From assembly GCA_903851195.1 (NCBI GenBank), contig CAINNJ010000010.1:62001-126000 (forward strand): a stretch of DNA of 64,000 nt, in the 5' to 3' direction. Shown piece by piece: positions 16,341-22,941 of the stretch (its first letter is position 1; each line of letters starts with the position of its first letter). The position numbers and the translations under genes are program-made. This DNA comes from an uncultured Acidobacteriia bacterium. GTDB taxonomy: Bacteria > Acidobacteriota > Terriglobia > Bryobacterales > Bryobacteraceae. The notes under the pieces were generated by a model, which worked only from the letters and a program-made list of their open reading frames with translations, searched no databases and had not been told where the DNA came from.

Positions 16341-19300
16341 TTAAAAGAAGAACCGAACGCCCAGCTGCAGCTGCCGGGGCAGGTTCGCCTGATAGGTCAC
16401 CTTGCCGAAACTCGCCGAGCCGAACTGCGTGTTCGGATTGGCAAACAACGGCGAGTTGAACAGATTCAGCGCCTCCGCGCGGAACTGGCCCGTGAACTTT
16501 TCATAGATTTTGAAATTCTTGAAAAGCGAGGCGTCCCAGTTCTTCATGCCGGGTCCGCGAGTATCGATGGACCGCGACACGTTGCCGAATGTGAACGCCG
16601 GAGCCTGCGAGAACGCCGCCGGATTCAGGTAAGAATTCAGCCGCTGTTCCACGCTGCCGGAAGTTGCGGGGCTGATGCCCGTGGCGTTAGGCCGTTGCTC
16701 GCCCGTGCCAATGGTGGAGTTCAGGTTCTGCTGGAAGACGAACAGCGGGAAGCCGGTCTGGTAAACCATGGTCCCGTTGACCTGCCAGCCGCCGACTGCG
16801 TAATCGAGCAGTTTGTTGCTGCCAAGGAACTTCTTGCCCTTGCCGAACGGCAGCTCATAGGTGAACGTGTTGGTGAAGCGCAGCGGCGTGTCCACCGAAG
16901 ACAGCGCCCACTCCGCATTCAGGTCATAGTAATTCTGGGGCTGCGAAGCCGGGGAACTGCCGGAGAATCCGTTGAACGAGTTGGAACTGCCGCCGCCGAA
17001 TTCGTTATCCCGGTTCTTCGCCCACGTGAAGGTGGAGAGGAACGTGAAGCCGGCGGAAAGCCGCTTCTGCGCTTTGGCTACCAGCGAATCGTACTGGGCC
17101 GAAGACGGATTCGTCACTTCACCGATGGTGCTGTACTGCGGATACGGCAGCAGCAACTGCGCCTGGGAGACTTTCGCCGAACCGATGACGCCCGCGCCGC
17201 CGTGTCCGAAGAACGGATTGTTCACCGAAGCGCTGAGCGCCGAACCCATCGAGAGGTACTGGCTGGGCAACTGGTTGATATTCAGGTTGCCGTTGCCCGT
17301 GGGCGAGGGCTGCAGGTGCGCCGAACGGGACCCGATATACCCGACTTCGGCCGCGATGCCGAACGGCAGCTGCTGCTGCACGTCGGCCGAGAACTGCTGG
17401 ATGATTCCCGACGTCCGGCCCTTGTCGAGATAGTTGAACGTGGACCCGATCGCCGTCAGCGCGCCGAGCGAGTTGCCCACCGGCTGCAGAACGCCGGACG
17501 GGAACGGGTTGCTCAGCGAATTCGCCGGTGTCGAGTTGCCGTCGTTGCTGGCCACGTAGGTGGTGGTCTGCGTGTAACCGGGGGCGATAGACGCGTCCGT
17601 CGAGAAGATGGTCGGGTTGTAGAAGATTCCCCAGCCGCCGCGGAAGGTGGTCTTGGGAGTGATCTGGTAGGCGAGACCGAAGCGCGGTCCCAGCTTGGTC
17701 TTCGAAGGCGAGCAGCAGGCGGATGCCGCGCCACCGACGCCGGCATACTGCAGCACGCCGACCGGCAGAACACCGGTCACGTTGGCCGCCAGCGGATTCG
17801 GAGCGGTCTGGTTAAAGCCCGTCACAATGTGGTTGTTCGATTCCCCGAGGCCCGTCTCATACTCGTAACGCAGCCCGAAGTTCAGCGTCAGTTTGCTGTT
17901 GACGCGGAAATCGTCCTGCACATAACCGGCGTAGTAGCGGACGAAATCATAGAACTTCGTCGAGGTGATCACCGAACCCGACGAGGGATAGCCGAGCAGA
18001 AGATCGGCGAAATCGGCGCCCGTGCCGTTCGTGGTGGTCGGATACTGGCGGCTGAAAACGCCGTTGAAGCTGAAGTTGCCGGCCGAACTGGAAAGGCTGG
18101 TGAAATCCGTGTGGATCAGGCGGTAATCGAAGCCCGCCGTGATGTTATGCCGGCCGATATATTTCGATACCGCGGCCGAAAAATTCTTCGAATGGAAAAC
18201 TGAAATGCTGGGGGAAGTGGAACTGATGGTGTTGTTCAGCAGGCCGATGGTGGGGAAGTAATTCGCCTGAATGCCGCCCGTGAAACTGGCCGGAAGTCCC
18301 AGCGAGCCCGGGTTGAAACCATAGCTGACACCTTCGGTGAAATTCGGGAAGCGGTTGAAACCGTAGCGAAGCGTCACCACCGTGGTCGGATTCAGAGTAA
18401 GCGTGCTGTTCACGGCCGTTGCGTCGGCCTTGCGGAACAGCAGGTAAGGTCCGTTGCTGCTGCCGCCGGGAAGCGTGCCCAGCGTGTTGCCGCCCGGCTC
18501 CCGGCTCTTGTAGTGGAGGTAGGAAGCACTCACGCGCCACCAGTCCCGAATGGTGTGGTCCAGCTTCGAAGTGTATTCGTCCGCACGATCGGTCAGGGTG
18601 TCGGTGCCGGTGTAGTTGACGGAATCCGTTTTCGTGGAAGCGGCCGTCGGGATGTACGAGAGAATCGCGGCGCCCACCGGGTTCACCATGCTGGCCGGAA
18701 TCACGTTGCCGGGGAACGGATTGCGCACCACGCTCACGCCGTTCGGGCAGTTGTCCGACGCCACGCAGGCGCGGGCCGAATTCGGCATGAAGATGGCTGC
18801 GGAACTTTTGGAATAATCGCCCTTCGCTTCGAGCGCGGTAGGCAAAGCGTAGGAATCGGCGAGCGGAGACTGCTGGCGATAACTTTCCGTCGCCACCCAG
18901 AAGAACGTCTTGTTCTTACCGTTGTAGAGTTTCGGAATTTCCACCGGTCCGCCAAATGCGGCGCCCCAGGTATAGTAGGGCGTTTCCGGCCGCTGCCGTC
19001 CGGCTGCGTTGTAGAAGAAATTGTTCGCCACGAAGTCCGTCTGGCGCGTGTAGCCGAAAAGCGCGGCGTGGAAGTCGTTGGTGCCCGATTTCAGCAGCGT
19101 ATTGAACACGCCGCCGCCGGTCCGGCCCATCTGCGCGTCATAGGTGCCCGTCTGCAGCTTCATCTCCGACGTCGCCTCAATCGAAGGGATGATCACCGCG
19201 CGGTTCGTGGAGTCCGTGATCGGAATGCCGTCGATCAGATAGTTGTTACCGCGCACCGGGCCGCCCGCAATCGAGATCGCGGAAGAGCCGCTCTGGTCCT

Positions 19301-19856
19301 GAAACCGGTTGAAACGGGGATCGCCCGCCGCCACCACGTTCGTGGAAAGCTTGGAAAGCAGAAACGGGTTGCGGCCCAGATTCGGAAGATCCGTCATCTT
19401 CTGCGAATCGAGCACCTGGCCGTTCGAGGCGTTGGAGGTCTCGATCAGCGGCACTTCTTCGGTGACCTGGACGCTGCTGGTCACGTCGCCAACTTCCAGT
19501 TTCAGATCGACCGTCAGCTGTTGCTGCGTGTCGATAATGATGCCCTTCTTTTCCGTCTTCTTGAAGCCGGGGGACTCCACGACGAGCATGTAGGTCGCCG
19601 GGTCCACCTGCGAAAACACGTATTCGCCCTGCGCGGAGGTGACGGTGGCGCGCGATGTCTGTTTTTCCTGGTTGACCAGCGTGACCTTCGCGTTCACCAG
19701 AACGGCGCCGCCGGAATCCTGCACGGAGCCGCGAACGCCTCCCAGATAAGACTGCGCGAACAGTGTCGCCGCGCCGGCCAGAAGTAAAAATGCCGGAATC
19801 AGCGTCCTGGCGGGGACGGCCGGGTTTTCACGTAGCGAGTTGGATTTTGCCTTCAC
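16341..19856 (-). CDS. TonB-dependent receptor with carboxypeptidase-regulatory-like domain (Oar-like)
   Basis: A 1171-residue outer-membrane protein. A signal peptide (about residues 1-35, ending LFAQ) is followed by a carboxypeptidase-regulatory-like beta-sandwich (about 38-120: GGVRGSVQDSGGAVLVNAKV, GEYVFSQVDPATYMLVV). A plug domain follows (about 130-260, with GGPVRGNNYLIDGIPITD), and a long beta-barrel ends in the aromatic terminus QLQLGVRFFF, as expected for recognition by the BAM complex. The GTG start at 19856 has AGGAG seven bases upstream. Acidobacteriota encode many such receptors; the ligand is often a polysaccharide or peptide product, but none can be named here. A terminator follows at 16284-16311. 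Energy would come from a TonB protein such as that at 13843. Confidence 0.93.
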   Translation of the reverse strand: MKAKSNSLRENPAVPARTLIPAFLLLAGAATLFAQSYLGGVRGSVQDSGGAVLVNAKVTLVNQEKQTSRATVTSAQGEYVFSQVDPATYMLVVESPGFKKTEKKGIIIDTQQQLTVDLKLEVGDVTSSVQVTEEVPLIETSNASNGQVLDSQKMTDLPNLGRNPFLLSKLSTNVVAAGDPRFNRFQDQSGSSAISIAGGPVRGNNYLIDGIPITDSTNRAVIIPSIEATSEMKLQTGTYDAQMGRTGGGVFNTLLKSGTNDFHAALFGYTRQTDFVANNFFYNAAGRQRPETPYYTWGAAFGGPVEIPKLYNGKNKTFFWVATESYRQQSPLADSYALPTALEAKGDYSKSSAAIFMPNSARACVASDNCPNGVSVVRNPFPGNVIPASMVNPVGAAILSYIPTAASTKTDSVNYTGTDTLTDRADEYTSKLDHTIRDWWRVSASYLHYKSREPGGNTLGTLPGGSSNGPYLLFRKADATAVNSTLTLNPTTVVTLRYGFNRFPNFTEGVSYGFNPGSLGLPASFTGGIQANYFPTIGLLNNTISSTSPSISVFHSKNFSAAVSKYIGRHNITAGFDYRLIHTDFTSLSSSAGNFSFNGVFSRQYPTTTNGTGADFADLLLGYPSSGSVITSTKFYDFVRYYAGYVQDDFRVNSKLTLNFGLRYEYETGLGESNNHIVTGFNQTAPNPLAANVTGVLPVGVLQYAGVGGAASACCSPSKTKLGPRFGLAYQITPKTTFRGGWGIFYNPTIFSTDASIAPGYTQTTTYVASNDGNSTPANSLSNPFPSGVLQPVGNSLGALTAIGSTFNYLDKGRTSGIIQQFSADVQQQLPFGIAAEVGYIGSRSAHLQPSPTGNGNLNINQLPSQYLSMGSALSASVNNPFFGHGGAGVIGSAKVSQAQLLLPYPQYSTIGEVTNPSSAQYDSLVAKAQKRLSAGFTFLSTFTWAKNRDNEFGGGSSNSFNGFSGSSPASQPQNYYDLNAEWALSSVDTPLRFTNTFTYELPFGKGKKFLGSNKLLDYAVGGWQVNGTMVYQTGFPLFVFQQNLNSTIGTGEQRPNATGISPATSGSVEQRLNSYLNPAAFSQAPAFTFGNVSRSIDTRGPGMKNWDASLFKNFKIYEKFTGQFRAEALNLFNSPLFANPNTQFGSASFGKVTYQANLPRQLQLGVRFFF

Positions 19857-20445: not shown

Positions 20446-20484
20446 AGTCCGTTTTGCGCGAGTTCATCAAAAGGAGACCCATAC

Positions 20485-21627
20485 GTGTCACTCACCACAC
20501 AAGAGCAGAAAGAATTCCTGACGCGCGGTTTTACCCGCCGCAATCTCGGCAAGATCGCCGCCATGGTAACCGCCGGCGCGTCTCTTCCCTTCTATAACGA
20601 GTCTGCGCTCGCGCAGTTGTCGAAGGTCGACAACGTTCCCGCCGACGCCGTCCTCATCAATGCGAACGAAAACCCGCTGGGCCCCTCCATGGCAGCCCGC
20701 GAAGCCGTCGCGAAGATCATTTCGCAGGGCGGCCGCTACATGTATGGTGAGACCGACAAGGTCGTGAAACTCCTTTCCCAGCAGGAAGGCGTCAAAGAAA
20801 GCTACATCCGGATCTACCCCGGTTCGAGCGGCCCGCTGCACCAGGCCGTGCTCGCTTTCACCTCGCCGGAAAAGCCGCTCGTCATGGCGGATCCCGGTTA
20901 TGAAGCGGGTGGCCGCGCGGCGCAGTTCATTGGCGCCAAAACGATCCGCGTGCCCCTGACCTCCGATTATCGTCACGACGTGAAAGCGATGCTGAAGGCG
21001 GGCGGCCCGAATGCCGGTCTCTTCTACATCTGCAATCCGAACAACCCCACCGGCACGCTGACCCCGAAATCGGAAATCGAGTGGCTGGTCGCGAACAAGC
21101 CGAAGGGTTCCATCGTGATGGTGGACGAAGCGTACACCCACATCTCGGAAGCGCCGTTCAACACCGACCTCGTCGCGCAGGACAAAGATGTCGTCGTCCT
21201 CCGCACCTTCTCGAAGATCTACGGTATGGCTGGCCTCCGCGCCGGCGCCGCGATCGCCCGTCCGGACCTGCTCGACAAGCTCGCGGGCTTCAGCGCCGGC
21301 ATGCTCCCCATCACCGGTATGGCCGCGGCCAGCACCAGCCTCGCGGAAAAGAACCTCATTCCGGAACGCCGCAAGCTCATCGGCAACGTCCGCAATGATA
21401 CCTTCGAGTTCCTCGAAAAGAACAAGTTCACCTACGTGCCCTCCGTGTCGAACTGCTTCATGATCGACGTGAAACAGCCCGGCAACAACATCGTCAGCGC
21501 GATGCGCAAAGAGAAGATCTACATCGGTCGCGTCTGGCCGGCTTGGCCGAATCACGTGCGCGTCACCGTTGGAACCGCCGAAGAAATGAAGCGCTTCCAG
21601 GCGGCGTTCCTGAAAGTGATGGCGTAA
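20485..21627 (+). CDS. PLP-dependent aminotransferase, HisC-like, with N-terminal Tat-type signal
   Basis: A 380-residue fold-type I aminotransferase related to histidinol-phosphate aminotransferases. The PLP lysine is K244 (RTFSKIYGMAGLRAG), NPNNPTG is at 184-190 and the aspartate is D214 (MVDEAYTH). Ahead of the catalytic part is FTRRNLGKIAAMVTAGASLPF with the pair R18-R19, followed by a hydrophobic stretch and ESALAQ, which resembles a twin-arginine export signal with an AXA-type cleavage site. The GTG start at 20485 is backed by AAAGGAG nine bases upstream. If exported, the enzyme would act in the periplasm on free amino acids or peptidoglycan precursors (inference). Biosynthetic HisC enzymes lack such a leader, so I do not name it hisC. 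The SulP gene follows 36 bases downstream. Confidence 0.85.
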   Translation: MSLTTQEQKEFLTRGFTRRNLGKIAAMVTAGASLPFYNESALAQLSKVDNVPADAVLINANENPLGPSMAAREAVAKIISQGGRYMYGETDKVVKLLSQQEGVKESYIRIYPGSSGPLHQAVLAFTSPEKPLVMADPGYEAGGRAAQFIGAKTIRVPLTSDYRHDVKAMLKAGGPNAGLFYICNPNNPTGTLTPKSEIEWLVANKPKGSIVMVDEAYTHISEAPFNTDLVAQDKDVVVLRTFSKIYGMAGLRAGAAIARPDLLDKLAGFSAGMLPITGMAAASTSLAEKNLIPERRKLIGNVRNDTFEFLEKNKFTYVPSVSNCFMIDVKQPGNNIVSAMRKEKIYIGRVWPAWPNHVRVTVGTAEEMKRFQAAFLKVMA

Positions 21628-21663
21628 AAAGAAGACCAGGGCAGGGCGAAGGGACCCCGATTG

Positions 21664-22941
21664 ATGCTCCGCGCAAAACTACTCCGCACCCGAGGCAAGT
21701 ACAACTGGGAACGCTTCGTGGGAGATTGCGCGGGAGGCCTGATCGCGGCTCTCATTGCCCTGCCTTACGGCCTTTCGATGGCCGCGCTGATGCACCTGCC
21801 GCCCATTCTGGGCGTGGTCACTTCCATTCTGACGGCGCCCATTACCGCGCTGCTGGGAAGGAATCCCGTGCTGATTGGCGGCACGGCCAGCGCGACCGTT
21901 CCGTTTATTGCCAACGCGGTCCGATCCCAGGGCATTGGCGGGGCCGCGAAGGTTTCCATTGTCGCGTCCGTCTTCATGATGGTGTTTTGCGTCATGCGGC
22001 TGGGACGTTATGTTTCGAAGGTGCCGCCCACCGTGGTGGCAGGCTTCTCCGCCGGCATCGGCGGCATCATGTTTATCTCGCAGCTAAACGTCTTACTGGG
22101 CGTGAAAGCGCCCGGCGGTGCCAACTCTCTGGTGCAACTGGCCACGGTTCTGGGGGAAATTCCCTCGCTCCGTTTCGCCCCGCTGCTTCTGGGCGGTATC
22201 GTGATTATCACGGCGGCGCTGGTGATGCGCTGGACGCCCCGGGTTCCCGCTCCCCTTGTCGGCGTTGCATTCGCGGGGCTAGCCGCTTATTTCTTCCGCC
22301 TGCATGAGCCCGAAGTCGGGTCGCTGCAGCTGACGCTCCCTCCCTTCATCGGTTTCTCCTGGACTCCTCAGGATGTTCTCAGCGTCATTCCCACCGGCCT
22401 GACTCTGGCCTTTGTCGCGTCGATCAATATTCTTCTGACTTCCCGGGCCGTGGAGCATTTCCGCGGCCGCCACAATCACCACAAGAGCGCCGACGCCGAT
22501 GCGGAACTTGGCGCCTACGGGATTGCCAATCTGGCTGCCGGAATCTTCGGCGCGCCGATGAGTGTCGGCATCCCGGCCCGCAGCGTGGCGAACGTTCGTT
22601 GCGGCGGCACCACGCGGCTTTCCAACATCATGCACGCCGTCTTTCTTTTCGCGCTGGTCAGCCTCGGGTCGGGCGCTCTCGCCCACATTCCGCTGGCGGC
22701 ACTGGCGGGCGTCACGGCCTGGATGGGACTTTGTCTCCTGGATGTCAGCACTTGGCGCCGCCTTCCGAAAATGCGCAACGTGGATGCGAGCGCCTTCCTG
22801 GTCACCGCCGTGAGCGTGCTGATGGTCAACGCGGTAGCGGCCGTTCTGGCGGGCTGCTCACTCTATGTGGTGCAGCACTTGTATGATCGGTATCTCAGTT
22901 CGCACTCCGGCCTGACCGGCGTTCCCAGCATCGCGAAATAA
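21664..22941 (+). CDS. SulP-family anion transporter lacking a STAS domain
   Basis: A 425-residue polytopic inner-membrane protein. The N-terminal GDCAGGLIAALIALPYGLSMA matches the first helix of SulP transporters, and about ten to twelve hydrophobic segments follow. The family moves sulfate, bicarbonate or dicarboxylates. Typical members continue into a cytoplasmic STAS domain of about 100 residues; here the protein ends at HSGLTGVPSIAK just after the last helix, so that domain is missing. A His-rich loop (HFRGRHNHHKSADADAE) precedes a segment resembling the conserved FGAPMSVGIPARSVANVR region. Start is either this ATG or the TTG directly before it (21661); GAAGGGA lies upstream of both. Confidence 0.82.
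   Translation: MLRAKLLRTRGKYNWERFVGDCAGGLIAALIALPYGLSMAALMHLPPILGVVTSILTAPITALLGRNPVLIGGTASATVPFIANAVRSQGIGGAAKVSIVASVFMMVFCVMRLGRYVSKVPPTVVAGFSAGIGGIMFISQLNVLLGVKAPGGANSLVQLATVLGEIPSLRFAPLLLGGIVIITAALVMRWTPRVPAPLVGVAFAGLAAYFFRLHEPEVGSLQLTLPPFIGFSWTPQDVLSVIPTGLTLAFVASINILLTSRAVEHFRGRHNHHKSADADAELGAYGIANLAAGIFGAPMSVGIPARSVANVRCGGTTRLSNIMHAVFLFALVSLGSGALAHIPLAALAGVTAWMGLCLLDVSTWRRLPKMRNVDASAFLVTAVSVLMVNAVAAVLAGCSLYVVQHLYDRYLSSHSGLTGVPSIAK

Follow-up and report, generated by a model that had tools for sequence, protein, structure and literature searches.

A Tat-type leader on an acidobacterial aminotransferase linked to genes for a SulP transporter and an Oar-type receptor

A PLP-dependent aminotransferase (AT) with a Tat-type leader was encoded at positions 20485-21627 on the + strand of the window, the 64,000-nucleotide stretch of an uncultured Acidobacteriia bacterium (Bryobacteraceae) analysed here, and its gene was linked to those of a SulP-type transporter and an Oar-type TonB-dependent receptor. 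Judged from the sequences of its relatives, the leader is real and the AT is very probably exported by the Tat pathway. The reading that we favour is periplasmic deamination of imported amino compounds, with the keto acid entering via the SulP, to which we assign a probability of about 0.45. The arrangement of AT, SulP and receptor in acidobacteria appears to be new and the kind of enzyme was already known; searches of the open-licence literature listed neither an acidobacterial Tat aminotransferase nor the trio.

Family placement of the aminotransferase

The AT gene ran from a GTG start to a stop at 21627 and encoded 380 aa, exactly the limits given in a preliminary description of this DNA, with a ribosome-binding site (AAAGGAGA, 20470-20477, + strand) 8 nt upstream of the GTG. 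Aminotran_1_2 (PF00155) matched residues 56-372 in Pfam (E = 1.3e-39). On the NCBIfam models the protein scored 499.6 bits for PRK09105 (NF006580), over the curated cut-off of 444; 396.4 bits for PtaA (NF051461), below the curated cut-off of 500; and 199.2 bits for HisC (TIGR01141), below the curated cut-off of 276.55. The domain had been called HisC-like, which holds for the fold but not for the family. The best PDB match was 3ly1 (30% identity, TMq 0.81), itself named only a putative HisC, and the solved structures gave no hint of a substrate. The AT also differs from HisC in carrying a leader, whereas two other genes of the same genome (L004 and L005) scored over the HisC cut-off and were leaderless by eye; L005 adjoined genes read as hisD and hisB. 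A HisC function for the AT was rejected on its sub-cut-off score together with the presence of these two separate HisC genes.

Relatives were collected by a contig scan with six peptides, none of them holding the RR pair; 125 were found and the best 80 were kept. Alignment A1 comprised 74 rows, namely the window AT, its own-genome paralogues L002 (54% identity) and L003 (50%), both with an RR leader, and 71 of the 80 loci. Three incomplete loci (L062, L069 and L070), L025 (leader identical to that of L011) and five close Pseudomonas rows (L079, L083, L085, L086 and L087) were left out. Residues N184, N187, D214, Y217, K244, R252 and R359, which we take to be PLP-site residues of fold type I aminotransferases, were invariant in 74/74 rows, and K244 (21214-21216, + strand) is, from its family, the predicted PLP-binding lysine. 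Beyond the Acidobacteriota, one of 14 control genomes had a gene over the PRK09105 cut-off, as did the Pseudomonas locus L080, which reached 680.6 bits on the PtaA model.

In a maximum-likelihood tree, built by a quick method with the leaders removed, the 67 acidobacterial rows were split from the seven Pseudomonas rows by one branch (support 100), far from HisC. The window AT fell inside a nine-row group (support 99), every member of which was SulP-linked. The nearest characterised relative of the AT is PtaA. According to section 9 of the review PMC6206403, Tat exports PtaA of P. fluorescens together with the bound PLP, and the substrate of the enzyme is the glutamate of pyoverdine; its genes lie mostly outside pyoverdine clusters and are present in species making no pyoverdine, and a role in other periplasmic pathways was suggested. 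The idea in the preliminary description that Tat could export PLP enzymes already folded and carrying their cofactor therefore has a precedent. The same description had regarded a periplasmic aminotransferase as non-standard; such an enzyme is indeed unusual, but PtaA precedes it. Both proteins have a Tat-type leader, belong to the PLP transaminases and exceed the PRK09105 cut-off, and they have in common K244, W351 and R359 (74/74 rows) and R349 (73 rows). However, the AT was only 44-45% identical to the seven Pseudomonas rows, did not reach the PtaA cut-off and, unlike PtaA, was linked to a SulP and an Oar-type receptor. Pseudomonas PvdN, likened here by description and not by sequence, is Tat-exported, PLP-dependent and periplasmic, as predicted for the AT, but catalyses a decarboxylation in which the amino group is retained (PMC6206403).

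The Tat-type leader

The predicted signal peptide covers residues 1-43 (20485-20613, + strand) and reads MSLTTQEQKEFLTRGF-TRRNLGK-IAAMVTAGASLPFYNESALA followed by Q, or in one piece MSLTTQEQKEFLTRGFTRRNLGKIAAMVTAGASLPFYNESALA before that Q. It holds the twin arginine R18-R19 (20536-20541, + strand), a weakly hydrophobic stretch and a putative cleavage site between ALA and Q, matching the RR, hydrophobic stretch and AXA-type site noticed earlier. RR followed by a hydrophobic stretch was present in 79/80 relatives (the best 80 of 125); the sole exception, L062, is truncated, its sequence starting within the domain at the first base of the contig. In A1 the arginine pair was invariant (74/74 rows) and A43 was kept in 73 of the 74, so that the comparison of homologues suggested in the preliminary description as a check on the arginine pair bore it out. 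One Tat rule was passed by 79/80 ATs, compared with 34/546 other genes of those loci as called by a simple script of our own; among those 34 were five amine oxidases and some additional aminotransferases from these very neighbourhoods. The window genome encodes both TatC and TatA, with one match to TatC and two to TatA/B/E scoring over cut-off. Ten-residue pLDDT means in the AF2 model were 48-63 in residues 1-50 and 78-98 beyond.

E39 (20599-20601), five residues before the predicted cleavage site, was kept in 66/74 A1 rows, and an acid (D or E) stood at a like distance in 11 of 12 Pseudomonas leaders read by eye. It is odd for the c-region of a signal peptide to hold a conserved acid, and residues 1-50 of the AlphaFold model were too uncertain for Glu39 to be placed.

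Uncorrected pN/pS in seven pairwise comparisons was 0.31-0.59 for codons 1-26, 0.05-0.16 for codons 27-43 and 0.11-0.20 for the rest, indicating purifying selection in the leader codons and therefore that the leader is translated. If the in-frame ATG at residue 27 were instead the true start, for which the presence of that ATG and the use of GTG in the longer frame could be cited, the AT would be cytoplasmic and the RR leader an artefact. However, a ribosome site precedes the GTG, RR is invariant in Acidobacteriota and Pseudomonas alike, codons 1-26 are under purifying selection, and the paralogues L002 and L003 have such a leader. A leaderless product of the downstream start was rejected on the ribosome site, the RR conservation and the pN/pS of codons 1-26, and we regard it as highly improbable.

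Linkage to SulP, receptor and other neighbours

A STAS-less SulP/SLC26-type transporter of 426 aa (21661-22941, + strand; PF00916, E = 3e-54) was encoded 33 bp downstream of the AT on the same strand. A C-terminal STAS domain is usual in SulP proteins but not universal; none was matched in the 426-aa window SulP, and PF00916 was its only Pfam match. On the NCBIfam models of sulfate permease, BicA and DauA the protein stayed under the cut-off, and its closest solved chains were named sulfate transporters. Besides the window, 19 of the 80 loci (the best 80 of 125 relatives) had a SulP-type gene directly downstream of the AT on the same strand; the SulP-type gene of L025 was cut by the contig end. 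The linkage was counted across 150 genomes of the window's family against 150 listed ATs among a larger number, so that linked counts are lower bounds. Of 70 SulP matches with ≥50% identity, at least 61 came immediately after a listed AT in the same orientation, and none of the 28 matches with <50% identity lay behind any AT among those listed. Gaps between AT and SulP were 3-225 bp, apart from one of 447 bp that belonged to the second piece of a G058 gene giving two matches. Among the nine remaining matches with ≥50% identity, two adjoined an AT piece truncated by a contig end and one had such a piece 1.6 kb off, four were themselves cut by a contig end, and two (G102:C162 and G083:C134, the latter an incomplete SulP) showed no AT over the 6.0 and 4.4 kb covered. 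AT and SulP were thus linked for at least 64 of 66 testable SulP matches. Five loci (L026, 3585-4190; L030; L031; L032; L076) also encoded, close to the pair, a protein of roughly 200 aa whose start looked signal-like, and the two members scanned, from L026 and L032, gave no family match.

The Oar-type TonB-dependent receptor (16341-19856, - strand; PF25183 and PF13620) was divergent from the AT. Neither this linkage nor that to the SulP figures in the preliminary description. A window-like receptor (48-54% identity) was also present in 13 of the 19 SulP loci. L009, the closest sister locus (91% identical), and L027 had AT and SulP but no receptor within 6 kb on either side, and the remaining SulP loci (L011, L017, L019 and L021) had short upstream flanks. 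Across the 150 family genomes, at least 51 of 79 matches to the receptor subfamily (E ≤ 1e-220) had a listed AT no more than 3 kb away. The subfamily was within 3 kb of at least 36 of 60 SulP-linked ATs, a figure lowered in part by contig ends and by the E-value limit, and at least 13 ATs had a receptor without a SulP. The window receptor had 147 matches in its own genome, some being fragments of a single gene, and only two other full-length matches exceeded 35% identity. A 51%-identical receptor paralogue stood beside the AT paralogue L002, and a 58%-identical one (L110, contig C20:26497-29901) had no AT in 19 kb. The neighbours of L110, read by eye, were an APC-like transporter and a planctomycete-type cytochrome protein. 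Extra aminotransferases with an RR leader were seen beside the AT in L072 (3193-4548), L074 (4313-5629 and 7453-8721) and L075 (3584-4876), loci that also had an Oar-type receptor; Pfam was run on two of these four extra proteins.

Most relatives outside the Bryobacterales set had other neighbours, which counts against uptake by deamination. Six acidobacterial loci (L043, L055, L058, L061, L065 and L067) had an FAD amine oxidase near the AT, and all but L043 grouped together in the tree. PF01593 was found in the four oxidases scanned, and five of the six had a Tat leader by rule. A RidA homologue was beside the AT in 6/6 of these loci by tblastn, with PF01042 in the one scanned, and four of the six sequences began with a signal peptide as judged by eye. 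The oxidase and RidA frames of L058 looked broken. L043 additionally had an M19 dipeptidase and a receptor, L038 had an M28 peptidase beside the AT, and L002 was divergent from an amino-acid permease; other relatives had neighbours of no such kind, such as pyruvate kinase or a VWA protein. A comparable oxidase-RidA pair is described in the accessible part of PMC5053998 for the LAAO-cytochrome c-RidA cluster of Gluconacetobacter diazotrophicus, which comprises an FAD amino-acid oxidase with a Tat signal and RidA and for which a periplasmic location was proposed. However, no aminotransferase, SulP or Oar-type receptor is named for that cluster in the same part of the source, and no such oxidase was found in the window genome at E ≤ 1e-15 in a search run without a positive control. 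A single weak RidA match lay 12.6 kb outside the window. Together these neighbourhood links suggest deamination outside the cytoplasm as the most economical theme, but they are drawn from other acidobacteria.

Proposed periplasmic deamination and its rivals

Under the reading that we favour, the AT would fold and bind PLP in the cytoplasm and then pass by Tat to the periplasm. An amino acid or similar compound may enter via the linked TonB-dependent receptor, the AT would probably strip the compound of its amino group once in the periplasm, and the STAS-less SulP would carry the resulting 2-oxo acid, an anion, across the inner membrane into the cytoplasm. A second periplasmic keto acid could convert PMP back to PLP, and the SulP, if an exchanger, might be what brings that acid out, although this step is speculative. 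The parts given to the receptor and the SulP were inferred from linkage and family. Deamination is favoured because of the conservation of the leader, the Tat genes, the PtaA precedent, the SulP and receptor linkage, the oxidase-RidA loci, the M19 dipeptidase of L043 and the amino-acid permease divergent from L002. The reading is weakened because L009 and L027 are without a receptor and because one is near at least 36 of 60 SulP-linked ATs only; because the amine oxidase was not found, and RidA matched weakly, in the window's own genome; and because the window SulP sits below all three NCBIfam SulP-family cut-offs. A dedicated route of uptake by deamination, in which an Oar-type receptor brings the compound in, the Tat transaminase acts on it, and the SulP imports the keto acid or exchanges it for the amino acceptor, is somewhat less probable again and is put forward tentatively.

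Siderophore or peptide tailoring, as with PtaA, would make the AT a periplasmic modifier of an amino group on a secreted siderophore, the linked receptor being that of the siderophore. The score of 396.4 bits on the PtaA model, the position of most PtaA genes outside pyoverdine clusters (PMC6206403), the linked TonB-dependent receptor and the NRPS condensation domains of the window genome (15 matches on contigs C58 and C64) are consistent with this. However, that score is under the PtaA cut-off of 500, and the dedicated SulP is left unaccounted for. Condensation domains were present in 20 of the 57 AT-SulP genomes and absent from 37, a further difference from PtaA, and were present in 29 and absent from 64 of the other 93, so the two showed no association (Fisher p = 0.72). 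NRPS-linked tailoring as a general role was thus unsupported, a result that concerns NRPS siderophores only; siderophores made without NRPS are possible, and tailoring as a whole appears unlikely. The AT might also serve the turnover of the cell's own wall or protein amino acids, for example D-amino acids from peptidoglycan, and not uptake. Its predicted exported location and the M19 dipeptidase (L043) and M28 peptidase (L038) beside two relatives would fit, but each peptidase was seen in just one of the scanned neighbourhoods and the linked outer-membrane receptor would be unexplained; we consider this turnover doubtful, to the same degree as tailoring. Equally improbable is an exported AT acting on a sulfur- or phosphorus-containing amino compound, such as an amino sulfonate, the anion of which would pass through the SulP. 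The SulP family and the sulfate transporters among its closest solved chains point that way, but an unsystematic look at the annotated neighbours revealed no sulfur-metabolism gene.

If the dedicated uptake route is correct, carbon would move inward as an anion and the nitrogen step would stay in the periplasm. Pyoverdine maturation is where Tat-exported transaminases have been known. The AT-SulP linkage makes a PtaA-like role outside pyoverdine testable by naming a candidate partner transporter, and it names a candidate substrate class for a SulP subtype that scores under the cut-off of every named SulP family it matched. PRK09105 genes, over the cut-off in 74 of the 150 genomes, are common in the window's family.
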